Program-made: the position numbers and the translations under genes
Part shown: one piece after another, positions 1,358 through 63,229 of the stretch
Layout of the letters: each line of letters begins with the position of its first letter
How positions within the stretch are numbered: position 1 is the stretch's first letter
The notes under the pieces: model-generated
What the model was told of the DNA's origin: nothing
Database searches by the model: none
The model's input: the letters and a program-made list of their open reading frames with translations, nothing else
NCBI GenBank assembly: GCA_030737835.1
Contig: JAUJYN010000067.1
Span: 58,180 to 122,179, forward strand
Length of the DNA stretch: 64,000 bases
DNA from: Acorus gramineus
Lineage: Eukaryota > Streptophyta > Magnoliopsida > Acorales > Acoraceae
Direction: 5' to 3'

Positions 1358-3021
1358 ATGTCATCGAACTTGACAAAAGCGTCCAGTGTTAAATGTAAGT
1401 TGTCTCCGCGCCTTCCTGCACATTTGGGTTGCTGTTCGACTAATCGCGTCGCAGTGACACCGGATACGGATGGGGCTCACCTACACGAAGACTGCCAATA
1501 CGCCTTACCGTCCCCTCAAAGCGAGCATTTCCCTGTAGGGAAGAGGAAGCGTCAGACAGATAGGAGTCAAGGCATTGTAGACGAGGAACCGCAAGCCAAA
1601 CACAGGCGACTGAACACCAACGCTACTTCGGACGACTCATTTTCGTCGGTCGTCGCACAGGAGGGTCCGATTCGACACTGGATAGAGAATGGGCAGCAGT
1701 GGCCAACTATTTCGGAGAACGTCTCGACGATGGATCGACGTCCACGCTCACAGAAGCGATCATTATCCGCATCGACCGGCCGTAGGCAATCGAGCTCGGG
1801 TAGCGGTTCCATGAGATGGTGGAGTCGCCAGCATGCCAGTTTCCTGCGTGAAGGCGGACTGATCATGGATGAGAAAGCAGAAATCACGATTACAGAAGAC
1901 AGCGAGGAGCTCTGCCGTCAAATCTTGCAGTGGGAAGAGGAGCTACCGGATGAATGGCGCTTTCAGCAAGACAACTATCTGAAAGTTCTTGAGAGACTGA
2001 GTTGTCGCAATGAACGACGAATAGAAAGAGACATTCCTCCATAATTTCCCCCTCTGCGGAATTACTCTATGAACAAGGTCACGTTGACTTAGAGCATATC
2101 CATGAAGGGCTCGATGCGGAATGGCGCAATTGTACGACTCTATCTGGGCCGAAGCCGAGACCGGACGGTACTTATGGAGTATCCTGGCACGTCTTCACCG
2201 ATGAAGAGAAGCAGTATCTAGAAATCGTGAAGACGGCCGCGTGTGAGGGTTTCGTCTTCCCATTCCACGTTCGTCAGGCCAAAAGCTCCGAAGGCCCGAT
2301 GGAACAAGCGGAGCTTCAAGCGATGCACAGCGCCAGCGTTGCAGTGAGTACCATGGTCGACCTCTACGAAAGCATTTCCGCATCCGAAGAGCTGGATCGA
2401 CAAGTGTTGGCTTTTTCGACTTCCCATAACCATAAGATGGTGCGCATATTCGCTCACTTTCCCATGTTCGATGGGATCAGGCAGACCTTCCATCGTCGGC
2501 TTCTCTTTGAAACGGAGCTAACATCCTTAACTTCCGACTGGAGCAGACCGTACAAGATTACGCTGGGCATCTGGAAACATTTCTACCCACAACACCTTCG
2601 CAGAATCCAAGATGCCCTAGCCAGACAGCCAGTCCGCGTACTGGACTCTTCAACAATACCACTTGGATCGGAAGGAGCGCTAGCAGGTGGCGTCGTCAGC
2701 AATGTGTCTTCACAAGAAGAGAGTCAATCCAAGAAAGCTTCGTTGTCATCGACTGTGCTATTGAAGGAGGAGAATGAAAGGTTGAGGGATGAGATCCGGA
2801 TCCAAACACAAAGCCAGCAAGAGTTGACGAAGCAGGTGGAAGAGCAGAAGGAGGAATTTCGCAAACACATTCTGATACTGGAGCATGAGCTGAAGCAACA
2901 AACTGAACAAAACAAGGAACAGGTGAGGCAACAAGCAGAACAACACAAGGAGCAAATGGAGCAGCAGAGACGTATTCTGGAACTCCTTCAGAATACAACA
3001 GGACAGTCAAATGAGACATAA
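1358..3021 (+). CDS. DUF7924-type fungal protein with C-terminal coiled coil, one frameshift
   Basis: The ATG lies in a good fungal context (CCACAATGTC). A 60-nt stretch at 1395-1454 looks like a phase-preserving intron (GTAAGT, CTAAT, GCAG). The N-terminal part has a bipartite basic patch, then PIRHWIE and a WEEELP region and ends near RDIPP. From 2041 a second frame continues with SPSAELLYEQG and the C-terminal family half: SWHVFTDEE, FVFPFHVRQAK, and VRIFAHFPMFDG. Both halves match, in order, the large fungal family I know as DUF7924, whose function is unknown. The halves join perfectly if one base is added near 2039. Residues about 435-520 form a Gln/Glu-rich coiled coil. The family segment that usually reads EVKC reads QAKS here. 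The single frameshift may be a sequence error or a recent pseudogene mutation. Confidence 0.8.
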
Positions 3022-5620
3022 ACCTAGGATATTCGCTCCTCAATCTGTTCAGCTTCACGTAGCTCTGCTCGAGGATCGTCCCAATACCGAAGAACGATTA
3101 AGACTCGCTAAGCTCAGCAAGATCTGCTCGACTTTGTTCAGCACGAGCTTAATCAGCAGATGAATATTGCTCTTTGACAAAACTTATTCAAATACAGTCC
3201 ACCGGTAACGAGTACAGAAAGTTGGCTTGCAGTTTCAATTTACATATCGTCTGTTGAATGTTCGCACAAAAGTCTTGATGAGTTCAACAACAGGGGATGA
3301 CCATTGCTGTCAGCTTTCTAATCCATGAGATAAATTGCGCACAGCATTGACGTGCACCCGAGAAAGACTTTGATCGCGCAAACCGACCGACCAACTAACG
3401 AGGCGTGGTGTCACCTTGGATGGAGCCATAGTGACCGACTAGCTCATCTCATGTGTTTCCGATCATGCCGACACGTATCTTTGAAAACTCTTTGCGCTTT
3501 CCTCGAGCAAGCTAGGCGGATCTTCTACTATCCGTTCAGAACGTCGGTACATCTGTCCCTAGCTCCAAAGGCATGGGTTCATCCTTATCCTGTTATGATC
3601 TCTGACGATGAACATGCTTCGCGACTGTTGATCCGGCTCGGTACTAATTCGCCCTGTAACATCCCATGACAACACAGTCCGTAAAAGAGACACCAAACGC
3701 TTTAATGGCAGCAACGACGGCTAAGCTACACAGTCACCATCACCACCACCAACCCTATGCGAATCACAACACTCATGTACATTCCTGACCTCGGACTTTC
3801 TTCGTAAACATTTTGGAGCGACTAATATCACATTTCAACGACATGAGTTGTTATGTAGTTCAAAATGTAGATCAATCGGTGAAATGAAAAGCCGAGGCTC
3901 GCTTCATCGTTCCCTCGACTGCCACAGATTTCCAAAGCGGATATCGAATGTATTTAGAATGAGGACTGTACGAGTACTTGAACGGGATGACTAGCTGCTA
4001 CCCACGAGTGCTCTGAGCACGAATGATGATGTTGAAATATGCGATCGTCCGTTGCGGGCTGCTCAGGCCGTCGCCGTCGCCATTTCCACTTTCATTCGTC
4101 CAGTCATCATGTCTTGTCTACATCTGTCAACCGCCATCTCCATCCGCCAAGTTGTGCTAGAAGATAGGCATGGGTTTAAATTGCAGTGACTTCGAATCGA
4201 GAAACTGTATGTCCTGCTGGTTGGCTGATGGTCGGCGGACACTGACTGGTGTCGAGGAGGAGGGGGAGGAGCAGGTTTGCGTGTCACGCATTCAGCTCAA
4301 ACAAACGTTCGTACCTACTAGCTTGTAGGCACATTCTTGACATCGTCCACCTACCGCCTCAGCACGACCTGAAGCCCATTCATGATATGATACACAGCCT
4401 AGATGCCAGATGAAGAGATTACATGAGAGCGCTTTGGACTACCCGATGCAAGAGCGTCATCGCGTTGGAAAGCAGTTCAGTAGAATGAATGAATGCAGCG
4501 TAGAAACGGTGTCTTGACCCAGTGTGAAGATGCCATAAGGAATGTGCCAGTGTTCAATGAGTCATGGAGCGATTGTAACTACATACTGAATGCTGATTAC
4601 TGCTGGCATTCATGGACGGATCAGATTCGCGGATGTGGGTGTCGTCACTCGACCGTGTTATCAGCGCTGTATGTCATCAGCGCTACCGGGAGCATACCTG
4701 AACGACATGCGTATCGCCGTCTTCTATAACCATGCTTGCCTATTGAAACCACCACATCGAAAACCGTCTCAACTCATCAGCCATCGCTACTTCATACACC
4801 GTCATTCGTGCTTTAGTGAGAGAGACAACGTTGCAATACTCTTGAGTATAAGTCTGCTGCTCAGTAGAGCGTTTGCTTTGCGGCACTTGTTGGAAAAGGC
4901 TGATGTTCTCAGTCGTAGGCGCCGGGTATGATGACGTGAGAATAATTAGTCCATGTGTTCGTGTAGTCGGTGACTGTAGTTTGTGATGTGGAAAGGTTCT
5001 GTGCCACGCAATGTGAACACCAATCTGCAAAAGACAGTATCACAATGGTATATCGGGCAAGAATTGCCAGGACTACTCAAGAGACATATCCGTATTCTAG
5101 GAAGAACTCCGCAATGGTTTTTTGGTGCTACGGATGCGAAAGCTTCAACACACCCAGGTTCGCTCTTGCGTCGTCTCGTAAAAGAAGTCATACTGCTACT
5201 GAGGTCTTCATCGTCACCTAGCTTGACCAAGGACAGATCTCGGAGTCTGCAATGAAGTAGATGGAAAGATCTTTAGTAATCATCGATCGTACCCTGCTTT
5301 TGCGGTGGAGGGAAACGGCCGACGATCCACCCAAAAGTCTGGCATGCTGCAAGCAAACGCTGTTCACTTACTAATTGCTACCTTATGATATCAATAACTC
5401 GTATGTACTCGAACTTGAACCCGAACTCTGACCATGACTGTCTTCCATGTGGTCATAGGGACTGAGTGTCTGCCAGAGCTGAATGTGTTTCTCGACGGCG
5501 CATCTGATGGAAGTCGCATGTATACACCCATAGACTTTTGAACCCGTTGACTCATAGGCGACGATCTGACCGCTTATACTCTCAGTTACCTTAACATATC
5601 CGCTTCCGGTCTGCATCAGT
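3022..5620. other. Intergenic, no supported gene
   Basis: Short frames on both strands without motifs. An open frame on the minus strand at 5383-5706 (107 codons) overlaps the end of the coiled-coil gene and could be a 3' exon or a frame-shifted continuation of it, but no splice junction in phase was found. Confidence 0.4.
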
Positions 5621-13129: not shown

Positions 13130-15843
13130 TTACATCATGTTCGGCGTGTATCGTCTTGACATGTCGGCGACCCAGTCTCGAAATAATGACCCACGCACGA
13201 ACTGAAATTCGTCAAAGCTTCCATAAAGTGATGATCGATAAGGAATACCCATGTAAGGATTGTGCCCATAGCTGGGATAAAGACTGGTGGGGGATGGAAC
13301 GAGGCAGTACTGACCGATCCCAAGGTAATGATAGTTTGTGCGATTTGCATCAGCTTGTGTTATGCATTCAATACACCTCCCGCTGAAACCAGTCTCGGGA
13401 ACAATCACGACCGCACCTTCATAGTATGAAGAGACAGGAAGGACCTTCCTCGAATCGCTCCCAGTCGCCCCACCAGGTGGCTGTGGTATCCAGGGTGTGG
13501 CATAATTCACCGAATGATGCACTGTGCGATGCACCGAATTCTGATACCTTGAAGACATTCCGATGATTTGATCATTATGGTGGAAGTTTACAGGCTCTGA
13601 ACCATCATATGGCTCCGTACTGGAGCCTGACAGCCCGCTATCGTCGCTCCTGGACGAGGTTCCGTTCCGAGACAGGTCACTACTACCTTTATGTATACCG
13701 TAATTAGCCGCAGTGAGCGTTAGGCCGGGCACGAGACATCGATTTGTAGGTTGTACGACACCTTTGCTGCTGCGATCCTTCGGCACTCGAGAAGCAGAGT
13801 CGACAGTCTCGCGATCCGAGTCATAGACAACGAGCGCATCATGATTATCGCTGGGAGTCAAGATGGGAGGAGAATGAGCCGCATCACAGCTTTGAAGCGG
13901 TACATCCGACATACATGGCAGTGTATCCGCGTGTGACGGATTGTTGCTTTCGTTCGTGATTCTGGAGTTGTGCCGTGATCTTTGCCGAGGCGGCTGTGGA
14001 GAATCCTGTGCGAGTTGCGGTGATCGTCGGGCCTTTCTTCCACCGGACCTGTCATGTTCCTTGGGCGACAGGCAATTTTGTTGACGAGTGACACATTCAC
14101 TTGACCGTCGAATCTTGGGGTTGGAGTCGAAAGCTCGGGATCTCTGTTTTTTGGCTGGAAAACAGTGTATAGTCGAGCATTCTTCCGAATCCGAATCGAG
14201 GGTCCTCTTTTCAGACGCCTCGCAATACACCATTTTGTTGTTGTCGACATCCAGTATACTTCGCCAGCTTGCATGATTTATACCTTCCATAAAATAGCAT
14301 TCGGTAACGGCGCTTCGACCTGTGATGTGGATGCGCAGGAAGCTGATCCGCTCGTTCGACAGAACAAATTCGGTACTCCAACGGCGTGATCTTGTGTCAA
14401 TTTCGAGCGCTTCCCTCGGGACGTCGTCGATAGCGAAGAGGCGAAATCCTGTCACCCTCCTATTTGCGTCTAATACATCTTTCTCTATTTTTACATGACA
14501 TCTTGCAGTGCTGTCTGGCGACGTTTGGACCAGAACAATATCTCCGGCATAGATAGGGGCTGAGCCCACTGATCAAACGAGTCAGTTCATCATCAAAATC
14601 TCCAGCGCTCTGGAAGGATGCTCACGCATTGGTCGGCTCTGCCCATGGTCACGCTCGCGTGTGTGACTCTGTAAGAGCTTGGTGACACCGGCAGCGTCAT
14701 TCCCAAGCCTAGATGAATTAGCAGGGCTTCGTACGCAAGAGAGAATACTGACTGGTAGTCAACGACAAGCTCTTGACCAATCCCGACATCTTGCAAGGTC
14801 ACGGCTACCGGATAGCGGCCATCGCTCATCTCCATCAACATGAATTGCGAGTTTGGCTTCTGAGAATGATTCATGTACAACAGAAGGCTGCTCCCTTGAT
14901 CCCCGTCGATGGCGTACGCTGCAAAACGTCAGACATTAGACCATGAGTGCACACGAGTCAGCTTACTTTTCGAGATGTCGAACATGTGGATACGCCCTAC
15001 GTGAGCACCGTCATTGGGCAGCTTTGGACCATCAAGACGGCCGAGTAAGGTGCCCTCGGGGATCTTCTGCATTGCGTACAGCCCTTTTCCCGCTCTCTTG
15101 ATTGTCGACGGAAAGACAGCTAGTTTGGGGGGTGTTTGATCGAAAGTCCAGGAACACCCGGTGCACGTACAGTGTCCAGGGATGCAAGCATAGTTGTAAC
15201 GAACGCAGTTACAGTCTCCGTCGCACGACCCGACACATTTACATGATGGGAATCGGCGGCCACACGTCTCGCCGCAATCGCAGCCGCTCCGACATGGTGC
15301 TTGATTCCGGACGCATGGGCATTCAGTACCGCAAGGTCCTTGGTGTGTACATCGATCTTCGTGCTCCTGCTGCATCGGCTTGTCGATATTGGGATATTGT
15401 TCCCTCAAGCCTTCGGGCGATCTAATGTAGTCTTCAACATAATATTTGTCGATGAGTGTCCGTGCAATTCTTGCTGCCAGGCGAGACGGAGGTGCTATAG
15501 TTTCCGGGAGATTGTGCTTTGATGCGGTCTTATAGAGTTCTTGTTTGCTTACAAGATGGACGTCGTGTTCGGTGGACTTTCGGCAAGCAGGCTGTGGCCC
15601 CATTGCGATGGGCAAAGACTGTGCTTGCCAGATATTGGGCGTGAAAACGAGAAGAGGAATTTGGGATATCAAGCGGAATTGCGGAACATCACGTTTGCAG
15701 CTATGTCAGCTCTTTCAGTATTTGTACTCTCGCTGGACAGGAACGTGTGAGACATTTGTAGCCCGTGGGCGCTTAATCTCAGCTTCCAGACATCGATTGA
15801 CCTTAGTCGTCACACGAACAAGAAGGCGCCGGTAGTATCCCAT
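13130..15843 (-). CDS. KMT6/EZH2-type CXC-SET protein with long C-terminal extension
   Basis: Relative of the histone H3K27 methyltransferase KMT6/EZH2. The likely start is the ATG at 15843 (MGYYRRLLVRV, then EAEIKRPRA), like the short basic N-terminus of this family; the join to the next exon near 15,700 is unresolved. A full CXC domain lies at 15351-15154 (CTHQGPCG, CPC, RFPSCKC, CNC, CTCTGC). The SET domain follows: GKGLYAMQKIPEG, an intron at 14966-14919 (48 nt, CTGAC branch), then NHSQKPN and IGQELVVDY. The next donor is uncertain (14752 or 14748; only 14748 keeps phase), then a 43-nt exon 14668-14626 and a last exon 14568-13130. The EZH2 SEYCGE segment reads GRLDGP, and the residue before NHS is Met instead of Ala. 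The tail starts GDIVLVQ (possibly BAH-like) and is then Ser/Arg-rich. Activity is therefore uncertain. Confidence 0.85.
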
Positions 15844-16809: not shown

Positions 16810-18648
16810 TTAGGCCACTGTAGGCATCATACTGGTATCGATAGAGCGAACTGCGGCGGAGAACAAACAAGTCTCAGGTGCCATTTCTCGAGCTGGACGC
16901 CACAGACTCTCAAGTAATGCTGAGCACTGATTGCCTAGATGTTTAGGCCCTGTACCAGACTTCTTCAATTCCTCCACAGTTTGAAGAACAACTTCATTGA
17001 TCAATTTCTTTCTCCCATCATTCAGCTGCACATTTGATAAGCATTGTGAAGGGTGACACCGGAGTGTATCAGATACGAATAGAATCTCGGGGGCGTGTAC
17101 TGAAGCGATGTTTCCGGATCGTAAGGCATGCTGAATCCACTCAGTTGACACATCGCGACATAGAGTATTGCAGATGAGGTTTCATATTAACACTAGCTTC
17201 ATCATCCTGATGGTCAGCCTGGTATAGAATGATATGATTATTTCTCTGATTTTCCGTTTCTTCTTCTGTTTGGATGAGAGATTGTCTGCAATCAGTACTG
17301 AGGGCGAGTATTTCTGTGAGGAGCCATATGTAATTATAAGACATTCGAAGGATAGGGCGAAGTTGCGGGAATGGTAACAAAAGTCTCAGTTTGTCTTTCC
17401 AATCATTGATGTCGTCACGTAGAGATTTAATGGATTCTATCTCCATGGACTGCGTAACTGTATCGTCCTCAGATCTTGAGTTTGGGTAGAGCATGCAATT
17501 CACTTTGTAGAAAAGCAGGTTCAGCTCAAATGTGGCCTGAGACATACTGACAAAATCTCTGCTCCCGGGAATGACGGGTGTCAACATCGAAGAGTTTTCT
17601 TTCCGGAGCTCCGCCAAGATGCCAGAATTGGGAAAATTAAGATTATTCTCTGAACAGGTACCGATCTGACGGTCCTGGACAAAGCATGCCATCCAAGCCG
17701 ACCACATTCGTTCCCGCTGCGCATCCTTAGCATCATCTTTACGGACCGGAAAATTCGAGCGATCGAGACCAGAATGCGGCCAATCCGTAAGGCGATGTCA
17801 ATCCACTCCCTTGCCACTCGCAATTCTTCAGAAATAACTTTCTCGGCCTTGATGGATGTGGATGTGAAGGGGATCCACTCTGCCAAAACCAACATCGCTT
17901 CCATGACTTCGACCTTGTTTATTGGAATAACAACTAGCGTCGAAATCAAATCTTGCATGTATTTCGAACAAACAGTAAAGAGTTCATGATCTCCCTCAAG
18001 ATCTTTCAATGCTACAGTAAGCACCGCCGTCAAAGGATACGGCTCATTTCGTGCTGTCTCGGCCAGTTTCGGAACTTCCAGCATTGCACCAAGCACTAGC
18101 GAGGATCGCGGATGATAATGCTCTCGGTATCGTTCGAGCAGAGATAAAACTTTACGGGTGGTCAATGTTCCGTTTCTGATCAGAAAGTAGTCGATGTCCA
18201 GTGTTTCTGCTGTGTCTTTGAGCAGTGGATGAGATGTGTATGAATCATAATCGTGGCTGATGTGAGTCAGGGATGCCTTGAATTCATTCGTGTTCCGTGT
18301 ATTGACCAAAATACTTTCTGACCCATCTGAGCCTCTCTGTATCACCAAATCAGCGTTCATGGCATCTCACCCATTGAACTTTCACAGACCGAGGATCATA
18401 CTGACTGTAGACGTTGATGACGGTCGCGATGATATGCTGTTTGAGATGGATGCATCTTGTGGACGTGAATATGGATGTAGCCCTGAGTCTGTGATCCAAG
18501 CCTTGTCACTGTATCGTGAACGTGATGTAGCTGGATTATCCCCCTCGTCTACCCCGTTGAGTGGTCGTTTACGTACCCGAGTCGCCTCTGGAGCTCGACT
18601 GGACGGACGGGCAGTTGCCAAAGTTGCCCAAATCTGTGACTCTTGCAT
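16810..18648 (-). CDS. Fungal transcription factor (middle-homology-region type), no DNA-binding domain found, frame breaks
   Basis: The segment from 18360 shows the middle-homology pattern of fungal zinc-cluster factors: DTAETLDIDYFL, RYREHYHPRSSLVLGAML, PYPLTAVLTVAL, EAMLVLAEWIP and WIDIALRIGRIL. The next frame starts RKDDAKDAQRERMWSAW and CFVQDRQIG, which normally follows directly, so one base appears missing near 17,745. A third frame (17151-16810) carries FVSDTLRCHPS and ELKKSGTGPKHLG and needs a +1 change near 17,160. Upstream, a Ser/Pro-rich linker (18648-18382) joins through a GTCAGT donor and a GATACAG acceptor in phase. No C6 zinc cluster is visible in any frame up to 19.2 kb. The protein may be truncated, may have lost its zinc cluster, or the cluster lies in an exon I missed. 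Confidence 0.65.
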
Positions 18649-29922: not shown

Positions 29923-30141
29923 ATGCAATTCTTACTGTTCACTCCCTCCTCGATCTACGCTCATTTGCATTCATTTGCATTGGTCCGAGCCGGAATCACA
30001 TCCGTCAACCAGGTGAACGATGAATGCTTCCAATATGTCGAATATCTAAATCTCAATGCTACAGCCTGTAAAATGCTCTTCTTTGATCCCCAAAACACAA
30101 GTGCGAGGATACCCATCGGGCCTATTCGACGAGTGGAATAG
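29923..30141 (+). CDS. Possible small secreted protein
   Basis: A 72-residue frame starts at an ATG directly after a CT-rich leader. The first 23 residues (MQFLLFTPSSIYAHLHSFAL) are mostly hydrophobic and could act as a signal peptide, although the two His and the Pro are unusual. The remainder has only two Cys and an Asn-x-Thr site. It overlaps the 3' end of the facing 531-residue gene by about 20 bases. It could be a chance frame. Confidence 0.3.
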   Translation: MQFLLFTPSSIYAHLHSFALVRAGITSVNQVNDECFQYVEYLNLNATACKMLFFDPQNTSARIPIGPIRRVE

Positions 30142-33879: not shown

Positions 33880-36800
33880 TAGATCAGGTTTTGATGGAAC
33901 CACTTCTACTTGGGTCAGTCTTGTTAGCGGCGTTTCATCACATGGGCGCGATCACTCAGAAGTAATACGGTGACAATATTGGTGAATCTATCTTCTATTC
34001 GGTAGGAATAACAATACGATGATGATTCGTGAACGGAGAACACTCCTCTCACGGATCTCGGCAGATTTGTTACCTCGACCAGCCTTGCTCCAACTGATCA
34101 TCATCCACTATGTATTTCTTAAAACATCCGACCTGTCGTTCTTTGTGGTGCCTGTTTTGAAGAAGTCGTCCGGTTCCTCATTCTTATTCTCTGCCATCAG
34201 CATCCGTTCCTCTTTTTCCAAGCGTCGCTTCTCTTCAAAGTATTCACGGCACTTCCCAGGCTTCCAAGGCAGTGGAGGTAGTGGAGGTTCACGCCACTCT
34301 TCACGGGGCTCTCCAGGGATGGGATAGAGCTCCTTAATGCGGAGGCGTGACTGGGGAGACTGACGACTAGGGTCGGCATCAATGTACCACAGGAATCGCC
34401 CGCATGGAGAGAAGACCATCTGTCCCTGTTTGATCTCGCTCTGAGTTTGAGCCAGTTTCTGGTTGCTCTGAACCTTCCCGTCAAAACTCAGCTCGATCCA
34501 ATGCAGATCGCGTTCGACCGCAATCGCCACGGACCTGCCATCATAGGAGATCGTAGCTCCGCAAATGCGCTCGCTAGGGGTCACAATGGAGGTCCACGAG
34601 GTCATGTCCCACAGCATGACCGCAGTGCTAGTGATGGCAAGTAGACATCCTTCTTTCGACATCTTGCTGAGCGTGTGCAGTTTCCCTTTGGCGACAATTG
34701 GCTCGCAGACAAAGTTGTCGATATGAGCGAGATCGAATATGTGGTATTGATTTCCTTTTTTCTTGATGAAAATCAAGTCTTGGTTTCCGATGCCACCTGA
34801 ATGTGGATACCCGCCCGTGTACTTGTCAAAATCCCGCTTTTTGCCGATAACATAGTTCTTGTACAGGGTCTTCCAGTCGGGCAGAAGTTGGCGACCCTCT
34901 GATTTGGCCTGGGTCCGAAATTCGTTCGAATCGGCCCTTCCCAGAGATAGTTTTCCGTCAAGCATCCAGTGTCATACCAATCACTGGATCTGTACAGATG
35001 AGTCTCTATCAACTGGTCATCCTTCACTTCGCACACACCGATATGCCGCTCTTTTCTGCCTCTGCACTGAAGTACAAGAAACGCATGCACCCACAGTAGC
35101 CCAGGTTAAACGTTTCGAGCTCGTCTCTTTCGAAGCGCTTGCAGATAGGCATCAGGTCGTCACGCTTTTCCTGCTCCACGCTGCCCATCGCTTCGATGTC
35201 TTGTCGATCCCAATCGTGTAGCTCGGTCTTGATAGAACGATCATAATCCTTGGCCTCGAGAGAGTACACCATGATCACTTTGTTGTTAATCAAATTTGGG
35301 TATCGGGGAACGAATATTGCTAAGAAACGGCCATCAGAGGAAAGACTAATTTGCGCCTTGGGGAGTACTCTCAAGCGATTGCTTCCACAGGGGTAGTCAT
35401 ATGCGAACGGTCGACAAATCATGCTCTCGTACTCGGCACGGTGAGATGCGAGCCACGCCTGGTCCGGACAAACTGTTCGTACAGCTTCTTTCCGCTGCCC
35501 TCTCGGAACTCTTGCGAACGCGTGAACGCATTGTCCTTGAGGATGCGACGGAGACCGGCCTTGTAGCTCGCATCCGACTGCGTCGTGATGTACAGGTTGG
35601 TCAGGACCTGATATTGACGACCGCTAGCTTCACGCAAGAGTGACAGCTGCACATCGTCGTTCATGCTGTCGATCTGAGCAGCAAGCTTGTCCGAACGTTG
35701 ATCACACTGTATCACAGCCTCGAGGAGCTGATCGAAACATTGTCGTTGGAGGTCTTCGTATCGCAGGAACGCAGCGATGTTGGCCAAGGAACCGATAGAT
35801 TCGTCCGGCACAGAGACTTTTTTGGCTCGAATCCAGTTCACCAATAGCTGCACATCCTTTGCGCTCCAGCCATTGCCCATGAGAAAGTTTCACATTCCGA
35901 AAGACCTCGTGGTCTAGCGTCGGCGTTAGTGATGGTAAGGAGAGAATGGAAGAACGGGGGGGAAAGGGAAGGGGGGCTATATGGGGAAGTAAAGGGAAAC
36001 GAGAAGGGTGTAAAGCAATTCTCATACCTACGGGGATCGAATTTTCTTCATCGCCAGCCTGCAATAGAACCATTTCGATGCGGTCCACAATTGTTGATGC
36101 TCTCTTGCTTTCAGCGTCCATGATGGTCTTGGTGTTTGGGTGGTTTATTGTACGGGTCAGGATGAATGGTTAGGTATACGTCTTGGAGAAGCGGCGGATT
36201 GGCGACTGGTATATCTAGTATCCGAAGGTACTGAAGACACATCCAGAATTGAGAATTGAGGGCCCCCTAGACCATCGAATAACGGAGGCCACTGAGTTTT
36301 AAGACGTCGGGTCTGTCCGGTTCACTCGTGAAAGATGTCTTCGTCACTGAGGTCAATGGTACTTTGTCCAACCCGGTGCCAAATAGCAACTAGTCACCGC
36401 CTGGACCTGAAGGCTGTATTAATTGTTCATCGCTCCTGTACCGTTACTGTGCATATTTTTAGACTTGCTGGACTTTGGATTGTCATCATTGGAATGAGTT
36501 TCGTGAAGGTTGCGCTTGGCAGAAGGTTCTTTCCAAAGCACACCATCGCGTTCGCACGGAGATAGATCGCACCTCCCGACCATGTATAGAAGACAGGAAT
36601 GTTCATGGAAAGAGGATCTTACGTTCTGGGGAGAACCGGGTTCATTGACTGTTTCGAGCTGACCTGGCCATGACCACTTTGGTTGCAGGAGGGTTCGCCA
36701 CACCTCAGAGCGTAGAGGTCCAAATCGCTTCACGCTTTACTTGTTTACAAGCTTCCATCGACTGCGTTTTGCTGTGTTATTAAAACCTCCACATGGTACT

Positions 36801-36975: not shown

Positions 36976-37002
36976 GATCATCAATCATCCCACATTATTC
37001 CA
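36122..37002. other. Upstream flank of copy A
   Basis: No gene. The part to about 36,240 is nearly identical to the upstream flank of copy C; beyond it similarity declines but remains recognisable to about 36,970. Confidence 0.6.
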
Positions 37003-38659
37003 CTAAGTCTCTTGTATGATGGTTGATGCCTCCGAATTTATCGACGCGGACGAATGTGCTTCCGGCAAGCTTCGCTGATTCCGACACGCGTCAATCGCTT
37101 TCTCGAGCAGGTTTTCAGGTCCTTGTCGCCTGAATAACTTTTCTTCCAGAGCTATCGTCAGGCATTGCATCGATGTCAATCTCTTAGAAGGCATCTCTTT
37201 TAGCATTGCACGAGGAGCTCTATGGTTTTATCATCGTCGCTACTTTCAATCGTCAACTTTTTTTGGATGATTTTTCGCCATTCCGAATACCAATACAAGG
37301 GCTTTTCAACTGACGGGTATTTTGGTTGTCCATATAGCACCTCCAATCCAATCACGCCTGCAGACCACACGTCAACTTTGGAGTCGTATTTCTTTATTTC
37401 TCCGTCAGTGATTTCTGGTGCCATATATGGTGCTGAGCCACAGAATGTCTCAAGTTCGACTTTGCTGCTCATCAACGCAGCCAGGCCGAAGTCGCTGATG
37501 ATGAGTTTAGATGGGGTGTCTTTTGCACGAGTAAATTTGCAGGTTTGAGATCACGATGTACGACAAGATTCTTGTGAAGATGACACAAACCATCGATCAG
37601 CTGCCCAAACAATGTGAATTTCTCATGATACTCCAGTTTGGCCGAAGTGATATTGCCATTCTCGCACAGCTCCATCACGATCGCGGGACCGTCTGTTTCG
37701 AGGAACTCAACAACTTTCATGACGTTCGGCTATCATAAGTCAGTTTGCAAGGTTTCACGATGCGATTCCTGAGGTCTGCACTTACATGAGGATGATCTCT
37801 CATGATGGCAAACTCTAAACGAACAGCTTCCAGCATTTTGAGCTTATCCTTTCCTGCCAACCTTTTGCTGGCATGTGTTACGAAGCTTTTGATGGCGAAT
37901 ACCTTGGCGTCACGGGCTCGAATGGCCTTGTCGACGGCGCCGAACACTCCAGCACCTAATGGTTCCAGCCGGTAATAGATGCTTTCGACGCGTCCCGTCG
38001 GTGCGGGAGTAGCGGCTCCAGTTTGTGGAACCTCAATCTCGAGACTCCAAGCTCTACAAAACCATCGTGCATGCGTTTGACCAAGGCTTCCAAATTCTGC
38101 TTGTACTTCTCACTGGACTGCTTGTGGTTTGGGAATTCGATTTCCAACTTTAAGCCTGCAGAGTTGATATAGAGTCCTGGGAGGGGCTCCGAACCCAGGT
38201 GTGATGCGAGAATCCACCGCTCCTTAGTACGAAATCTGTTCACATTTGACCATTGTATTCGACCGCTGTACCATACGTGGAGCTGTAGTCGTATAGCCAG
38301 ATCTCCAGATCATCATTCACCAGGATCTTGTAGTGCTTTGAGCTGATGCCACGCGTGCCTCGAGCGCCAAGCCGTATGTGGCACTGCTCACTGTACCAAA
38401 CTGTATGCTTCAGATAAGTTCGGAATCTTTTGCTCATCTAGAAGTCGATCAAAGCAGAGTATCAACTGGTCCCCCTTGTCGATACAATCCACATAAGAGT
38501 AGTCCAAGGCAGGCGTACCTTCTCGACTGCTGATAGTATCTTCAGCTGCGACGATACTATCCGAGGAACGGAACACTGTTTATTGTGTGGTAGCCCAAAC
38601 GCCTCGGTAGCATTTCGTTGGTTGTTGGAACTCAGAACGGCGAATATGTTTTCGTCCAT
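37003..38659 (-). pseudogene. FHA-domain Ser/Thr protein kinase broken by about six frame changes
   Basis: Start MDENIFAVLSSNNQRNATEA at 38659. Reading through the breaks gives, in order: LDYSYVDCIDKGDQLILCF; an FHA domain (CHIRLGARGTRGISSKHYKI, IWLYDYSSTYGTAVEYNGQ); RTKERWILAS; a kinase glycine loop (LGAGVFGAV) and FAIKSF. An intron at 37785-37730 (56 nt, CTGAC) joins RDHPH to PNVMKVVEFL. VMELC, VVHRDLKPANLL, ISDFGLAAL, CGSAPYMAPE and DVWSAGVIGLEVLYG follow. All catalytic motifs (HRD, DFG, APE) are intact. Breaks lie near 38,580, 38,410 (+1), 38,245, 38,038, 37,514 (a C4 run on the coding strand) and 37,206; five of six need one added base. Phosphothreonine recognition plus kinase activity would be expected if intact. 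The lack of nonsense changes argues against old decay. Confidence 0.85.
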
Positions 38660-40642: not shown

Positions 40643-42248
40643 TCAGCTTTTTTGTTCTCTCAACAAGCGCGCTTCACAGTATTCGCGATAATTTGCAGGC
40701 CCTGGAGGAAGCTTCGGCGTCGGAGGCGGACACCAATCCTCACGAGTTTCTCCAGGAATCGAGTACAGCTGCTCAATACGAAGGCGTCGCTTACCGGTAT
40801 CGATGTACCACAGAAACCGTCCACATGGAGAGAAGACCATTTGTCCCTGTTTGATGTCGCCTTGAGTCCGAGTCAGTTTCTGGTCATTCCGAACGATACC
40901 ATCAAAGCTCAGTTCGATCCATCGTAGATCACGCTCGACCGCGATTGCCACCGACTGGCCATCATACGAGATGGTGCCTCCACAGATCTGCTCGCTGGGG
41001 GTCACGATGGAAGTCCACGAGATTGTGTCCCACAAAATGACAGCAGTGCTGGTGACGGCAAGCAGACATCCTTTCTTTGACATTTTGCTTATCGTGTACA
41101 GTTTCCCTTTGCCGACAATTGGCTGACAGGCAGGGGTGTCGATATGAGCGAGATCGAATATCTGATACTGCTTTCCGTTGCGAAGGAAGATCAAGTCTTG
41201 GTTCCCGATGTCCTGTTCTTTTGAATATCGTTCATGCTTGCGTATGTCCTCATCTCGAGGATCAACGTAGCCCTTGTACAGGGTCTTCCAGTCGGGCAGA
41301 AGTTGGCGACCCTCTGGCATTTGGCCTGGTCCGAAATTCGTTCGAACTTGGGCCCTTCCCAGAGATAGTTCTCCGTCAAGCATCCAGTGTCATACCAATC
41401 ACTGGATTGGAATTCACATGTCTCCGTGAATTGATCGTTCTCCGGGTTGCGCTCCACCTTGTACAATCGATCGCCCTCCACTTCGCACACGCGGATTTGC
41501 CGACGATGTTGCCGTTCTTGTGGCCATGCCTGGAAGCGCGAGAAACGCATGAACCCGTGTGGCCCAAGTTAAACGTTTCGAGCCCGGTCAATTCGAAGCG
41601 CTTACAGATGGGCATCAGATCGTCACATGTCTCCCGCTCCACGCTGTCCATGCCTCCGGTACCAGGCCGGTCCCAGTTGTGCAGCTCGGTCTTCTCAGAG
41701 CGTGAATAACCCTCAACGTCAAGAGAGTACATCATGAGCACTTTGTTGTTGACGTTAGGCCATCTGCTGGGGATGAGCATGGCCATGTAACGGCCATCAG
41801 AGGACACGTCGATTCGCGCTTCAGAGAGCCGGCGCAATTACGTCCCTTCTTTGGCATGGGAATACGCGAAAGGGCGGCATATCATGCTCTCGTACTTGGC
41901 ACGGTGAGATGCGAGCCACGCCTGGTTCCGGACAAACTGTTCGTACAGCTTCTTTCCGCTGCCCTCTCGGAACTCTTGCGAACGCGTGAACGCATTGTCC
42001 TTGAGGATGCGACGGAGGCCGGCCTTGTAGCTCGCATCTGATACTGACGACCGCTAGCTTCACGCAAGAGTGACAGCTGCACATCGTCGTTCATGCTGTC
42101 GATCTGAGCAGCAAGCTTGTCCGAACGTTGATCACACCGTATCACGGCCTCGAGGAGCTGATCGAAACATTGTCGTTGGAGGTCTTCGTATCGCAGGAAC
42201 GCAGCGATGTTGGCCAAGGAACCGATAGATTCGTCCGACACAGAGACT
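40643..42248 (-). pseudogene. Copy B: 5'-truncated propeller-like paralogue
   Basis: Homology to A and C stops abruptly at 42248, inside the N-terminal domain just after the SVSDES segment (SVPDES in A and C), so exon 1, the intron and the start of exon 2 are missing. About 34 bases present in A and C are deleted near 42,040, an in-frame TAA follows KEGT near 41,840, and single-base breaks lie near 41,545 (a G4-to-G3 change fits) and 41,325 (C3 to C2 fits). Propeller-like blades remain: IDVSSDGRYMAML, KQYQIFDLAHID, TISYDGQSVAIAVE, MVFSPCGRFLWYID. It is more diverged from A and C in the C-terminal half than those are from each other. A pseudogene by any standard. Confidence 0.85.
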
Positions 42249-42635
42249 GCAAAGCTCATGAAGGCCGGGCATGAAGCATTGACTGGATCGAATGAAGTCC
42301 CCATTGACCATCCTGTCTACGAAATGATACACAATCTCGTCTACAGATTATTCGCAAGTCCAGAGACGAAGAGACAAGAGCATGAACAAATCAGTCTCAG
42401 AATCACTTGCGCCAATCCGAGCGAATTCACTACAGCGAGCCCAGTGAAGTCCACGAAGGTGTGTGAATCAGATCTGCAGTCAAGGACGAAACGAACCTCG
42501 AATCGAAACCCGAAGCAACCCGCAGAGTCTGCACGAACAAAGCACACAGCGACCTCCCCATCCAGCATGGAGCTCCGATCCGGTAAAAAGCTCGCAGTGC
42601 ACAAAGTTGTGAAACCTCGCAAAAGACTCGCCTGA
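42249..42635 (+). other. Unrelated sequence fused to copy B breakpoint; coding-like basic frame
   Basis: On the far side of the copy B breakpoint a plus-strand frame reads VPIDHPVYEMIHNLVYRLF, then a basic Ser/Thr/Lys-rich stretch (SRTKRTSNRNPKQP, SMELRSGKKLAVHKV) to a TGA at 42635. It has no start of its own. It looks like the 3' end of another gene into which copy B was joined, or a chance frame. Confidence 0.35.
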
Positions 42636-42989: not shown

Positions 42990-45720
42990 CGAGTAGTCGG
43001 CGTTCAGTACCTTAAGGTACCTACCATAGAGCTTCCGAGTATTCGTCCACCGTGGTGGCGTATACAGTGGAGTCGCGGCTGGTAGACGCTTTCTCTTCCT
43101 CCAGCTTTCGTTCCTGCTCTTTCGAGCGCTGTGTGGTGAAATTCAGCATTGGACGTGGACACCACGCTTCACAGAGCTCTCCAGGAATGGGATAGAGCTC
43201 CTTAATGCGGAGGCGTGACTGGGGAGACTGACGACTAGGGTCGGCATCAATGTACCACAGGAATCGCCCGCATGGAGAGAAGACCATCTGTCCCTGTTTG
43301 ATCTCGCTCTGAGTTTGAGCCAGTTTCTGGTTGCTCTGAACCTTCCCGTCAAAACTCAGCTCGATCCAATGCAGATCGCGTTCGACCGCAATCGCCACGG
43401 ACCTGCCATCATAGGAGATCGTAGCTCCGCAAATGCGCTCGCTAGGGGTCACAATGGAGGTCCACGAGGTCATGTCCCACAGCATGACCGCAGTGCTAGT
43501 GATGGCAAGTAGACATCCTTCTTTCGACATCTTGCTGAGCGTGTGCAGTTTCCCTTTGGCGACAATTGGCTCGCAGACAGAGTTGTCGATATGAGCGAGA
43601 TCGAATATGTGGTATTGATTTCTTTGGCTGATGAAGATCAAGTCTTGGTTACCGATACCTTGTCCTTCTGGATACTTGCCTAGATTTTCTGCGTGGTGGA
43701 TATCATATCCCTTATACAGGGTCTCCAGGTCGGGCAGACCTTGGGCACCCTTTGACTCTTGGCCTGGATCCGAAAACCGTTCAAATTGGGGCCCTTCCCA
43801 GATATAGTTCTCTGTTAAGTATCCAGGATATCCGTGCTTATACCAGTCTCTACACGAAAAAACCTGTCCGCACCAATTGATTGCTCTCCGCTCCGTAAAC
43901 GCCGACATGCCGATCATCCGCCAGTTCTTCTTCGGCGTACGAGAAGCGTATGCACCCGCGGTGGCCCAAGTTGAATGTTTCGATCTCGGTCAATTCGAAG
44001 CGCTTACAGATGGGCATTAGGTTGTCACCTTTCTTCTCTTCCGTGCTGTCCATTCCTCCTGTATCAGGTCGATCCCAGCCGTCCAGTATGGTCCTTTCAG
44101 ATCGTGAATAATCCTCAGCCTCGAGAGAGTACATCATGAACCCTTTGTTGTTGACGAATTCTCTGCAGGGATGAGCATGGCCATATAACGGCCATCAGAT
44201 GAAATGCCCATTTGCACCTGTGAGAGTGCATACAATGCTGTCATTTCATCCATGACAGACCAATATGCGAACGGTCGACAAATCATGCTCTCGTACTCGG
44301 CACGGTGAGATGCGAGCCACGCCTGGTTCCGGACAAACTGTTCGTACAGCTTCTTTCCGCTGCCCTCTCGGAACTCTTGCGAACGCGTGAACGCATTGCC
44401 CTTGAGGATGCGACGGAGACCGGCCTTGTAGCTCGCATCCGACTGCGTCGTGATGTACAGGTTGGTCAGGACCTGATACTGACGACCGCTAGCTTCACGC
44501 AAGAGTGACAGCTGCACATCGTCATTCATGCTGTCGATCTGAGCAGCAAGCTTGTCCGAACGTTGATCACACCGTATCACGGCCTCGAGGAGCTGATCGA
44601 AACATTGTCGTTGGAGGTCTTCGTATCGCAGGAACGCAGCGATGTTGGCCAAGGAACCGATGGATTCGTCCGGCACAGAGACTTTTTTGGCTCGAATCCA
44701 GTTCACCAATAGCTGCACATCTTTGCTCCAGCCATTGCCCATGAGAAAGGTTTCACATTCCCGAAAGACCTCGTGGTCTAGTGTCGGTGTTAGTGATGGT
44801 AAGGAGAGAGTGAAAGAACGAGCGGACGATATGGGGGATCAGAAGGGCCGTAGCAATATACCTACCTGCGGGAATTGAATTTTCTTCATCGCCAGCCTGC
44901 AATAGAACCATTTCGATGCGGTCCACAATTGTTGATGCTCTCTTGCTTTCAGCGTCCATGACGGCCTTGGTGTTTGGGTGGTTTATTGTACGGGTCAGGA
45001 TGAATGGTTAGGTATACGTCTTGGAGAAGCGGCGGATTGGCGACTGGTATATCTAAGCATTCGAAGGTACTGAAGATACATCCAGAATTGAGAATCGAGC
45101 GCCCCCTAGACCATCGAATAATGGAGGCCATCGAATTTCGAGACGTCGGGTCAGTCTGATGCACTCGTGACACGGGTCTTGATCAGAGAAGCCAGTCCGG
45201 TGAGAGGACTAGGGGCGGCAGTGACCAAGATACAATGGGCGTCGAAATCTGTTCAACGAAGAAGACTTTTGACCTGGCCTGCATTTTCGTGCCTCGATTT
45301 GACGACCAGTCTCCGCATGCAAATAGGTATGTCTCCAGCCAGTGCCAAGATGTAACCAGTCAAGGCTTGGCACTGAAGTCTGCCGATCACCACTCTCGCA
45401 CTCGAATCTTTGATGTCGAAATAGATGCCACGGGTGTTGCATCTTGCAGATGATCCTTCTTAAACATACGCTGTGACGCTCGCATGGAGATAGACTGCAT
45501 TTGTGGTCTTTGCATGCATAACAGCTGTCTCTGTGACAGATGGGATTTGCGTGCATTCCGAGATGATTGGTGTTCATCGACTGTTTCGAGCTGATTTGGC
45601 CGCCACCACTCTGATTGTATTCATCTCCAAATTACCTCAGGATATAGAAGGCCACATCGCTCAACACCCCTCGCTTACAAGCGTCTATCGATGAGCGTCG
45701 CGGGGGTGACCAGGTAGCGA
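42990..45720. repeat. Duplicated block C
   Basis: Paralogue of block A. Three sub-blocks are almost identical to A: 43,190-43,600 (one mismatch seen in about 430 bases), 44,270-44,755 and 44,880-45,060. The stretches between them are clearly diverged. Confidence 0.8.
43021..44959 (-). pseudogene. Copy C: best-preserved N-terminal paralogue, two or more frame breaks
   Basis: Exon 1 from the ATG at 44959 and an 88-nt intron at 44865-44778 (GTAGGT, CACTAAC, CACTAG) join in phase to give SIPADHEVFRECETFLMGNG, then KDVQLLVNWIRAKKV and NIAAFLRYEDLQRQCFDQLL without a break, so this copy defines the family's N-terminus. The frame stays open through QVQMGISSDGRYMAML. It needs one added base near 44,145 (before FMMYSLEAEDYSR) and one base fewer near 43,862 (a T6 run), then reads CRDWYKHGYPGYLTENYIW, NQYHIFDLAHID, ATISYDGRSVAIAVE and MVFSPCGRFLWYID to the stop at 43021. 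The C-terminal tail differs completely from A and B. Function unknown. Confidence 0.75.
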
Positions 45721-48438: not shown

Positions 48439-50620
48439 CTAATGGGCCGAAGCGTTCATCTCTGCGTTCCTGACCGACCAGCTCGAAGTCGAAGGCCGCG
48501 TCGAGATCGAACAGTGCCCGCATCTCCACGCTAACCCCAGCTCGCGAGCTTCAATGCCTACGCACTTGACGTGGTAGTCTCGCCCACACTGGGCATCACC
48601 GCACCCGACCGTTCCTCGTTTCCCGACGGCCGGCTCGCCACAAAGGCAGTCGCGTGGCTCGTGAGCTTCACCGGTCTCTTGATGTCGATCATGCGTCACG
48701 GACGCCATAGCTGTGGATGTCACGAGTGCTGTCGCTTGCATATTTCCCACACAGTAGTAGACCGTCGCATCGTCTACGAGCCCATATTTAAGTAAGAACG
48801 ATAATTTTGATCGAAATGCCGCTCGCCAGTAAGTATCATGGATACGGTCTCGATGTGAACGCGCAAAGCGAACGATGGCATCCCTCAAGAACCTGTCGCC
48901 GGAGAGGTTCTCCCGGTCGAGGTGATGGTGGAGGTCTTCCTCAAAATCACATTGGCCCTCGGAAAATCCATATCTGGTCCGGGCTATGCGTTGGCCTTCG
49001 TCCAGATGAGTCTCGTTGGTATCATCATCACTGTTGCTGATATAAGTGCCCGGCTCGACGGCCAGTTTGGTGCTGTTCCGGTAAAATTGTACTCCTGGCA
49101 CTTGAGGAACGGGGTTCCACTTGGATCCAGCAACTGGAAGGTCAAGGACAGCCTCCGGATCGAACGGTTTATCTTGCTGTTTACGTTTGTTCGTGGACGG
49201 GGGAGAGGTGCGAGCAGCGCGCTGACCGGGTTGGTGCGTCCGCTGATTGGCGTTCGCGGTGGCGGCGAGGGTCTTGGTCGCCTTCTGTGGTCGGTCCTTA
49301 CATGCCCAGCGGAGGGATGTGCGAGTAGGCGGAGAGTTGCCCGATATGTGCAGCGGAGGAAAGGTTTCGGCCACTGCCTGTCTTCGGCGCTCATGTGACG
49401 GCGATACCTGTGGTCGATCTTTGCATGCCCGATGGAGGGATTTGCGAAGGAGCAGACGATTCTCCGATGCCGACGGCTGTGAGAGGGACTCGTCACCGCC
49501 GTACAGGTGCAAAGCACTGCTCCTGCATCGATCACAGCCTCTAATCTTGACGCCCCTGGCGAGCTCGCATGAGCATACCACTGCCGCAGCGTATGATGTC
49601 GACTCTGTCGTACACGACTTGTGTACGCCCACGCTGATGGGAAGTTTCACTTCTATCGTCTTTTCGACGTCCAGTGTCAATGCTATCTTCTGCTTCTTGT
49701 GTATGGTCTCGCTTGGGGTAGATTGACCTCCGCCGTATGCTTTCCATTCGATGACAATGCTGTCCTACGCCACTCGCTCGTGCCCTCACTGCTAAGTGGC
49801 ACTACCTCTATCGTCTCCTCAACGATGTCATTGTCCTTCGGTCTTGTCGCGCCGGTGACGTGAGCTACATCATTAGGCACCTCACTTTGCACTTGCGACA
49901 CATCAATGCCGATATGTGGCGGTCTTGGTTCAATCGACAAGGTCGCATGCGTTGGTAGATCAGTCTGCGGAAGAATAGAGCATTGTCCAGCATGCAAGTT
50001 TGTCAAGTGAGTTTCCAAGCCTCTGCTGTAAGCATACCGTTTGCCACATATCCGACATTGGTGTGGCTTCTCTCCCTGGTGTGTCCTAAGGTGTTGCTTC
50101 CAATCGCTGTGCTGAGTGAACTCATCGAGACATATCCGGCATATTTTTGGCTTCTTTCCGGCGTGTGTCTGAAGGTGTGTATTACGATGGCCCGACTGGC
50201 TGAATTCCTGAGTACATTTCGTACATTTGTATGGCTTCTCTCCAGTGTGTGTCCGAAGGTGTGTATTACGATGGCCCGACTGACTGAATTCCTGAGTACA
50301 TTTCGTACATTTGTATGGCTTCTCTCCAGTGTGTCTGAAGGTGTCTATTACGATTGCTCGACTGACTGAATTCCTGAGTACATTTCGTACATTTGTATGG
50401 CTTCTCTCCAGTGTGTGTCCGAAGGTGTCTATTACGATTGCTCAAATGACTGAATTCCTGAGTACATTTCGTACATTTGTATGGCTTTTTCCTGGTATAC
50501 GACATAAACGTCGCGCCTGTTGACGTGAGCAATCAGCCGTCCAACCTTATACTTCAACAGCGCAAGGTGCGCGATGAGTGCGAAGACCTCGAGCTCTAAG
50601 TCAATGCGGTATGTATTCAT
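48439..50620 (-). CDS. Six-finger C2H2 array in line with a PHD finger, frame breaks
   Basis: The ATG at 50620 (MNTYRIDLELEVFALIAHLA) leads into six C2H2 fingers. The first four are nearly identical (YKCTKCTQEFS..., linker TGEKP). The fifth and sixth diverge (ICRICLDEF, QCRICGKRYAYSRG). One A too many near 50,497 and a 2-base loss in an AC repeat near 50,335 break the frame inside the array. After the fingers the frame runs QVQSEVPNDVAHV to RPYT, one base is missing near 49,695, then KKQKIALTLDVEK opens a long frame. It has two RACKDRPQ-type repeats, a Lys/Arg-rich part, DPEAVLDLPVAGSKW, FRSKLSFLLKYGLVDD, and a C4HC3 PHD-like finger (CLCGEPAVG, CGDAQCGRDYHVKC, WRCGHC). It may be one gene or two adjacent ones. 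A nuclear DNA- and histone-binding protein would be expected. Confidence 0.7.
50202..50505 (-). repeat. 84-bp tandem repeats encoding C2H2 fingers
   Basis: The landmark GAATTCCTGAGTACATTTCG recurs at 50202, 50286, 50368 and 50452, giving spacings of 84, 82 and 84 bases. The short unit lacks one AC pair. The units are almost identical outside the helix codons. Confidence 0.95.
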
Positions 50621-59066: not shown

Positions 59067-59377
59067 GTTTGTGGACTCTGAATGAGCCACCGGATTGCGC
59101 TCTTGACATTAATTGGATCGATGACAAGATCCTCGACACTCGTTCCTTTCGGCTAACTTCCGTGATGGCTGCGATGTAGTGTTGTCCTCGTATGCAGGAC
59201 ACTTGCGCACCAAATGCTCTCACCTCTGAACATAAGCAATCTAGAGAGGCTCTACCAGAAAAGCAAAAATGCCACGCCATGGATACACGAGGACAGCAAT
59301 GTCTCTGTAAGTTGCTTGTGAGCGATCGAAGGACTGTTCTCCGAAGTGAGCTTCATCCCGGATGGATCATAGTTTGT

Positions 59378-59886
59378 TTAACAGATAAACGTAAGGACAG
59401 GGAAACGCAGATGTATTTCATTTGCTCGCTTCCAGCCAACGTGGGGCATGCGGCTCATTCGCTCATGAAGGACCGTGAAGGCCCGTCGTCGTCGACGTTT
59501 GCTTGCACTCGCGAGCATAGCCGCTGTGGCTGCCGCTAATCAAGGTATAATAATCGCGTGTGATTAGAACGTAGAGGTACGTGCATACCTACGACAGTGT
59601 CAATCGCGGACGGAACAAAGGGTTGGCCTTCGGATCGGAGATGGATCGTTGTGTTCATGCTTGATCGCCGAATACTGTCGACCCACTCGGGCACCATCAA
59701 AACATCTGATGCTTTCATTTGGCATCCTTGATATCTAACGTAGCTTGGGGATGTACATGATTGTAGCCACCGCGCTTGGCCGTCATTCATGCACTTCTCC
59801 GTTGGCTGTTGTACAAACTGTGGTTCTATCCACCAAAAGCAAGTGGAATTCACCATCCACATCCGCAATGCATGAAAGTTCTCCAC
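59378..59886 (-). CDS. Hypothetical protein fragment with a 53-nt intron
   Basis: A coding-like frame near 59,870 reads NNWLWRTFHALR and, after one inserted base, DVDGEFHLLLVDRTTVC. A separate exon-like stretch reads MKASDVLMVPEWVDSIRR, TTIHLRSEGQPFVPSAIDTV. GTATGC at 59588 joins an acceptor at 59536 in phase to AATAAMLASASKRRRRRAF and LHERMSRMPH, ending at 59378. The splice phase and basic C-terminal exon support a real gene, but the 5' end and family are unknown, and the two parts may belong to different genes. Confidence 0.35.
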
Positions 59887-62245: not shown

Positions 62246-62359
62246 CAGTTTGGGCTCCTGTTTGATGTCATGCATGCTCGATAACTTAGAACTGACGTCG
62301 TACAGTTCGGGCTCCTGTTTGATGTCATGCATGCTCGATAATTTAGAAATGACGTCGTA
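62246..62359 (-). repeat. 57-bp tandem duplication
   Basis: Units 62246-62302 and 62303-62359 differ at three positions. In one minus-strand frame each unit encodes KLSSMHDIKQEP, containing I-K-Q-E, which fits the SUMO-attachment consensus. That frame is open for 108 codons but lacks an ATG start. Confidence 0.85.
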
Positions 62360-62408
62360 CAGTGTCATATTGTTGAAGTCCGGCAGGCCATGGCGTGCCA
62401 AATGTCTT

Positions 62409-63229
62409 CTACAGAGCTATGAACGCACTCGGAAGAAATTTCTGGGAGCCACAGATGGCGCACACGGTGCAATACGTCCGGGACACATCGCGTATTAGGT
62501 TTTGAATGATTTCAGATCGTTTCTCGCTTACGAATACTACCCTGATATCAGCATTGTCAATGTTCAAAGTCAGCGGGAGACCAACACCAAAATTCGGAAT
62601 GACCGTGTTTACGGTGCTATTTTCCGACATCATGCATATGGATGCAAAGCTTGCCGTATATCTCATGATCATGCATCCAGTAATTTTCCCAAGATGTTCG
62701 TCGTCTCGTATCACAAATGCAACACTTGCTAATTCTGCCATGAATTGAAAGGAGATGGTGTTACTTGACTCCGCGAAAACGTACAATACGCGAGAGGCGC
62801 CTGGGACCGAAACGACATGCGGCAGAGCTGATTATATCCATCAACCATTGATACAACGAGTGAACAGTATCTTGCCATATTCTTCTGTGATAGCTCATTT
62901 AGCGAGGGATCGCTGGCGGTCTGGGGGCTGATCGTTTGGAGAAATGTTCTCACTACCGTAAGATGGTCATCACTTAGTTCGATTGGCTGTAGTGGTTTCT
63001 TCGAGGATACCCTTTTATTCATCTCGGCGAGAGCGTCTCCGATGATTGACATTGCTCCTCTCATGACATTGCGCCTTCTTCGTATTTGAGGTTCATCTCT
63101 AAGCTGTGTATTAGAGGAATTGATAGGGTCAGCCTGCACCAGTGACTGTATAGGTGATCTTGAGCTACGGTTCTGATCATTGGTGATACTTTGCTTCCTA
63201 GAGTTGGAGGAATGTTTCCGCTTCGGCAT
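62409..63229 (-). CDS. Hypothetical protein, basic N-terminus, one frameshift
   Basis: The ATG at 63229 (CCAACATGCC) starts MPKRKHSSNSRKQS, a likely nuclear localisation region. RRRRNVMRGAMSIIGDAL, then DDHLTVVRTFLQTISPQTAS and YCSLVVSMVDGYNQLCRMSF follow, which are helical. One base appears missing near 62,795, after which the frame reads LYVFAESSNTISFQFMAEL, FVIRDDEHLGKITGCMIM and DNADIRVVFVSEKRSEIIQN to the stop at 62409. I do not recognise the family; no catalytic motif seen. The repeat at 62,246-62,359 lies just beyond the stop. Confidence 0.5.

Follow-up and report, generated by a model that had tools for sequence, protein, structure and literature searches.

Why do the coding frames in one 64-kb stretch of a plant genome assembly break so often, and nearly always as if a base were missing? 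The stretch, which we call the window throughout, comprises the 64,000 nucleotides at positions 58,180 to 122,179 of JAUJYN010000067.1 in the Acorus gramineus assembly GCA_030737835.1 (398.6 Mb, 137 contigs). It is the terminal part of a fungal nuclear contig of 122 kb, with whose end its own end coincides, and that contig is the first piece of a scaffold of 375,688 bp (C105; the window is C105:58180-122179). A first-pass annotation of the window had listed 18 sites at which an added or removed base would restore a reading frame, many of them in or beside short homopolymers, and had ascribed them to deletion-biased consensus errors or to a very young burst of small deletions. Our analysis confirmed that the coding frames break through base loss, with a deletion bias. 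It is likely, in our judgment, that the window represents fungal contamination in a plant long-read assembly, with most of the breaks being consensus errors and a minority being true pseudogene lesions.

Breaks were counted with a hidden Markov model (HMM), an order-2 periodic codon model that permits GT-AG introns and charges the same penalty (-9) whether a base is missing, a base is added or a stop occurs. Across the 5,819 codons modeled in the window, it placed 10 missing bases, one extra base and 10 introns, with 0 nonsense codons, bearing out the earlier statements that losses predominate and that few stops lie between breaks. With other penalties, the numbers of missing bases, extra bases and nonsense codons were 10/1/1 (-7), 10/1/0 (-8) and 9/1/0 (-10), falling to 6/1/0 at -11 and 4/0/0 at -12. 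The whole contig (bases 1-122,179; 14,294 codons) gave 14 missing bases, 2 extra bases and 0 nonsense codons (21/3/3 at -7), and addition of the second fungal contig of the scaffold brought these to 15, 3 and 0 (24/3/4 at -7). Deletions thus exceed insertions by 10:1 in the window and 14:2 in the contig; the same direction was found for 6/6 polarized gaps in a family of tandem paralogues, while the gaps in the mitochondrial DNA described below are unpolarized.

When single changes were implanted, the order-2 model recovered 17/60 deletions, 20/60 insertions and 19/60 stops, and an earlier model recovered 36/70, 34/70 and 33/70, respectively. The HMM therefore finds both kinds of implanted indel about equally well and has no preference for deletions; with 26 simultaneous implants, the gain that the earlier model registered was smaller in deletions than in insertions or stops. 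A further set of implants compared the left part of the contig (deletions 56/110, insertions 60/110, stops 38/110) with the window (22/110, 25/110 and 17/110). In this comparison, stops were recovered somewhat less often, at ~0.7 times the rate of deletions, and 10/110 implanted window deletions came out labeled as extra bases. At most settings, the earlier model had yielded 8-16 missing bases, 0-3 extra bases and 0-1 stops (0-3 missing bases at the stiffest settings). It placed a missing base in the SET-domain gene at 14705 and, when the penalty was relaxed, another at 14049. We think that these breaks are wrong, and the order-2 model was substituted for this reason.

How do the 18 listed sites fare? 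Six (2039, 17745, 32635, 37514, 49695 and 43862) each lie within an interval, delimited by stops, in which the HMM places an event, although the event for 17745 appears in the 122-kb model only and is absent from the window-only model. Sites 38038 and 38245 are jointly supported by weak FHA and kinase N-lobe matches, below the Pfam cut-off, that occupy different frames, and four others (19870, 37206, 38410 and 50497) stand on a reading of the frames by eye. The remaining six (17160, 28803, 39460, 58194, 58466 and 62795) receive no support from the model. The site at 43862 had been called an extra base; the sequence there, which aligns poorly, actually lacks 2 bases that the two other paralogues have. 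Breaks outside the earlier list include copy-specific losses in the three tandem paralogues and an 82-base unit near 50,330 in a zinc-finger array.

A conserved gene elsewhere on the scaffold is also broken. This FolC-family gene, on the second fungal contig, is spread over three frames, which match positions 20-38, 47-151 and 153-303 of 400 in the TIGR01499 profile, each piece scoring under the curated cut-off. At both frame steps, the shift is that expected from one missing base; the HMM calls one of the two. The matched stretches are free of stops and retain what we take to be the P-loop and DGAHN motifs. The family assignment follows from the NCBIfam match, as no FolC-type family was matched in this gene by Pfam, even with E values up to 1; in a PDB search, the first piece matched FolC structures and the second matched nothing up to 0.01.

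The mitochondrial piece of the scaffold can serve as an internal gauge of error, since the same circle has been read twice. Over 19.15 kb, 48 substitutions and 13 gaps separate the two passes. Among isolated differences, gaps outnumber substitutions by 10:1 when isolation means more than 15 columns and by 7:1 when it means more than 30. Isolated indels without isolated substitutions are the trace left by consensus errors. A missing base breaks the frame of the presumed nad6 in pass 1, and the gene is open in pass 2. The substitutions sit in a few tight clusters, near 1.9-2.5, 6.2-6.6 and 17.7-17.8 kb, and resemble two haplotypes with conversion tracts.

That the window is fungal nuclear DNA follows from its Pfam families (DUF7924, C2H2 fingers, Zn2Cys6, SET, BAH, kinase and F-box) together with the short GT-AG introns (48-88 bases) modeled in it. 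Matches resembling VEFS, bZIP and FHA domains fell under the curated cut-off, and on the plus strand the scan covered 50.3-55.3 kb and single frames only. The GC content is 47-52% in 4-kb steps, and neither a tRNA nor, at gathering scores, an Rfam match was found in the window. The host assembly is that of a plant, as its GTP_EFTU loci include what we take to be plant-type EF-1alpha and plastid EF-Tu. Further fungal contigs were looked for with two families: Zn_clus, the fungal Zn2Cys6 family, has a single match in the entire 398.6-Mb assembly, inside the window, and Chitin_synth_2 has zero. Along the first 252,179 of the 375,688 bases of the scaffold (252 of 376 kb), the part covered by the analysis, the type of DNA switches at three N runs, each exactly 10,000 bases long. 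We infer that the scaffold consists of unplaced contigs joined by fixed-size spacers and, from composition and the codon model, that its third piece (183,179-223,278) is fungal as well. Fungal contaminant contigs in plant assemblies are a known kind of case; as in those, fungal nuclear and mitochondrial contigs occur here within a plant assembly, but in this instance three fungal pieces are joined by 10-kb N runs in one scaffold.

If the window is a contaminant, how could the breaks have arisen? A fungal chromosome end would have been carried along with the plant DNA, and its consensus was likely made from few reads, which would scatter losses, mostly of single bases and sometimes of two, along the sequence. 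Genes that are mostly intact in the living fungus would then appear in the record with switched frames, retained motifs and hardly any added stops. We infer a low read depth, the sequencing platform and how large a part of the breaks are errors (most, we think). Consensus error is favored because nonsense codons are absent at the main settings, the contig is fungal DNA in a plant assembly, the FolC-family gene is split with its motifs kept, and the two mitochondrial passes differ by isolated short gaps. In a study of long-read errors, indels made up 69% of the errors in a nanopore assembly, most of them false deletions, and deletion errors peaked at homopolymers of 4-5 (PMC12007338). Our case is similar in that indels dominate, false deletions exceed insertions and genes are split into adjacent frames, but differs in that the clustering at homopolymers of 4-5 has no counterpart here in the form of enrichment.

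Several observations weigh against consensus error. Homopolymers of at least 4 bases were not enriched, falling in 9/16 break intervals versus 9.6 expected by chance, so the proposed link between breaks and homopolymers failed; the test has low power, however, because the intervals are 34-571 bases wide. The homopolymer spectrum, which is not decisive, revealed no clear depletion, and a T21 run was seen. Some losses are larger than a single base (2, 4 and 34 bases), and the 34-base loss falls in paralogue B, which also lacks an alignable first exon; both features of this truncated copy look like real decay. A 531-aa frame is clean and the SET-domain gene is probably clean. In the mitochondrial DNA, most differences are clustered substitutions, and the break in the presumed nad5 in pass 2 consists of two extra bases. 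Some stops do appear once the penalty is at its loosest: 1 for the window, 3 for the contig and 4 with the second contig. Finally, after correction for sensitivity, contig bases 1-58,179 have 0.39 breaks per kb and the window has 2.5, a roughly six-fold difference (P = 0.0008; 5 and 9 deletions), so the rate of consensus errors would need to differ from one part of the contig to another. Counts per stretch inside the window nevertheless follow a Poisson distribution (P = 0.70), and these two results pull in different directions. The contrast would arise either if read depth were uneven across the contig or if real decay in this subtelomere-like region added to the errors; we think that both contribute and that errors have the larger share. 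Of the earlier explanation, consensus error stands as the best-supported cause. Its homopolymer component and several of its listed sites do not stand, part of the damage in paralogue B looks genuine, and a young burst of small deletions may still have contributed.

Could the window instead hold true pseudogenes, that is, fast-turnover subtelomeric families (NLR-like genes, the FHA kinase, the propeller-like tandem paralogues, C2H2 fingers and DUF7924) decaying by small deletions? We regard this as unlikely for the breaks as a whole, although a minority of them, notably in paralogue B, probably do reflect such decay. Fungi have subtelomeric birth-and-death pseudogenes, and the contig resembles their setting in its NLR-like genes near a telomere, its tandem paralogues and its truncated copy: it starts with a telomere-like array followed by DEAD-helicase, HET/NACHT/ANK and TPR genes, the window has a higher density of breaks than the 58 kb to its left, and nonsynonymous codons exceed synonymous ones in all three paralogue pairs. 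Large losses and a missing exon are nevertheless found in paralogue B only. Neutral decay should yield nonsense codons and frameshifts at roughly equal frequency, although a literature search on fungal mutation-accumulation ratios found no paper. At the main settings there are 0 nonsense codons versus 10-14 deletions, with a sensitivity to stops that is similar or somewhat lower, and even at the loosest penalty the counts are 1 versus 10, 3 versus 21 and 4 versus 24. Also unlike birth-and-death pseudogenes, the FolC-family gene is broken on a second contig although its motifs are present. The third-position excess between paralogues A and B and between C and B (hardly between A and C), the single stop in all aligned blocks and the Poisson spread of breaks within the window likewise argue against decay. 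It is quite improbable, in our estimation, that the fungus has a real, strongly deletion-biased small-indel process, for example through lost mismatch repair, that breaks conserved genes such as FolC faster than nonsense mutations do in both its nuclear and mitochondrial DNA.

Two further explanations would leave the gene products intact. Spliceosomal introns misread as frameshifts could account for the odd site, since short GT-AG introns are modeled at 10 places in the window, one of them explains a frame change in the kinase gene and the break that the earlier model placed at 14705 may be an intron. As a general cause, introns are very improbable. The kinase profile is matched over positions 51-136 in a first frame and continues over 136-244 in the following one, and because columns 136 and 136 abut across the break at 37.5 kb, an intron cannot fit there; the neighboring frame change is the one accounted for by the 56-base intron at 37730-37785. 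The switch at 2,042 in the DUF7924 gene is narrowed to 34 bases, and the 1-2-base gaps in the paralogues lie inside otherwise aligned exons. The intron reading is therefore ruled out for the best-placed sites, and for some others it may hold. Programmed -1 frameshifting or RNA editing that restores the products would agree with the one-base-missing direction of the majority of breaks. We give it hardly any credence, as the losses are specific to single paralogue copies and include 2, 4 and 34 bases, the lacking letters vary between sites, and no common context was noticed at the sites read, where no systematic motif search was made.

The paralogues allow individual losses to be polarized. Their alignment contains 37 listed gaps, 16 of which are multiples of three. 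Among gaps whose surroundings are at least 0.78 identical to each of the two other copies, a threshold chosen after the list was seen, 6/6 that break the frame are losses (1, 2, 2, 34, 1 and 1 bases). The loss near 35464 in paralogue A is also an HMM event (35465); A additionally lacks single bases near 35899 and 35888 relative to C only, as B is unalignable there. Paralogue C is 4 bases short near 44168 and 2 bases short near 43856, each in a poorly aligned stretch. Differences fall at third positions in 141 of 294 cases between A and B (other positions 82 and 71) and in 114 of 238 between C and B (67 and 57), and the excess is slight between A and C (66 of 173; 59 and 48). The blocks contain 1 stop in total, in frames picked to reduce stops and changes, and nonsynonymous exceed synonymous codons in the three pairs by 90:27, 124:75 and 110:76. 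Together, the third-position pattern and the nonsynonymous excess indicate moderate protein constraint on the family. Identity among the copies is patchy, with blocks of 96-100% beside blocks of 63-75%, as would be left by gene conversion.

Table 1. Pieces of scaffold C105 (scaffold coordinates) and features of the window (window coordinates)
Feature	Coordinates	Strand	Description	Basis
C105 piece 1	1-122,179		Fungal nuclear, 122,179 bp; starts with telomere-like CCCTTA array	
C105 piece 2	132,180-173,178 (L016-L020)		Fungal mitochondrial DNA of 40,999 bp; covers a circle of ~21.86 kb 1.88 times	
C105 piece 3	183,179-223,278		Nuclear-like, 40,100 bp, ~49% GC; holds FolC-family gene	
C105 after piece 3			AT-rich DNA; fourth N run starts near 247,891	
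DUF7924 gene	1358..3018	+	Modeled GT-AG intron 1395-1454; one missing-base switch inside 2011-2044	HMM, frames
SET-domain gene (PF00856)	13133..15640	-	GT-AG introns 14569-14625 and 14919-14966; two stretches, no break	HMM
Missing-base switch interval	17581..17800	-		122-kb HMM
Unbroken 531-aa frame	30125..31717	-	Top coding score among unbroken window-model stretches	
Coding stretch	32190..33390	-	Two missing-base switches, ~32616 and ~32850	HMM
Paralogue A	34111..36160	-	Losses at ~35464 (1 base), 34935 and 34905 (2 bases each) versus both other copies	
FHA-kinase gene split over frames	37000..38500	-	FHA, kinase N-lobe, intron, then two kinase pieces	Pfam, frames
GT-AG intron in kinase gene	37730..37785	-	Modeled, 56 bases	HMM and flanking Pfam frames
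Paralogue B	40646..42270	-	Exon 1 unalignable; 34-base loss at 42039; 1-base losses at ~41559 and ~41330	
Paralogue C	43024..44960	-	Modeled intron 44778-44865, borders common to A	
C2H2 zinc-finger array	48442..50490	-	84-base units; one 82-base step near 50330	

Other genes of the window add detail to this picture. In the DUF7924 gene, positions 99-225 of the PF25545 profile were matched in the downstream frame. The SET-domain gene has an extra 44-base intron near 14.7 kb, read by eye, and is probably unbroken apart from its introns. The 531-aa frame has no Pfam match. In the kinase gene, the offset between the frames of the FHA and N-lobe matches, both weak and under the curated cut-off, corresponds to two missing bases or one extra base. 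The zinc-finger gene passes, through a missing-base switch inside 49683-49767, into a frame with the VEFS-like match that lies below the Pfam cut-off, and its 84-base units at 50148-50487 are almost identical to each other, which suggests recent amplification.

What do these results mean for users of the assembly? They are chiefly a warning about data quality and are of low biological interest. A fungal contig filed under a plant would be annotated as plant genes, pseudogenes or transferred genes. Because the scaffold also contains a mitochondrial circle that was read twice, such errors can be gauged without access to the reads.

Bacterial endosymbiont decay was also considered and dropped, as the Pfam families are fungal and the host assembly is that of a plant; searches against E. 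coli (window 1-25,000) and plasmids (one protein) returned no matches. The AT-rich loci that follow the third piece of the scaffold (L029 and L030) have no match to the mitochondrial piece, no tRNA and no Rfam match. At the opposite end, the telomere-like array (L009:1-90) consists of CCCTTA units, one of them minus a C, whereas the usual telomere unit is CCCTAA. It is adjoined by a DEAD/DEAH helicase gene (L009:383-3860) that has 12-base coding repeats and resembles the telomere-linked helicases of other fungi. Long NLR-like genes follow in L009 and L010 (C105:8456-19380), one with many TPR repeats in its scanned part and a second with HET, NACHT (NPHP3_N) and ankyrin repeats across three frames.

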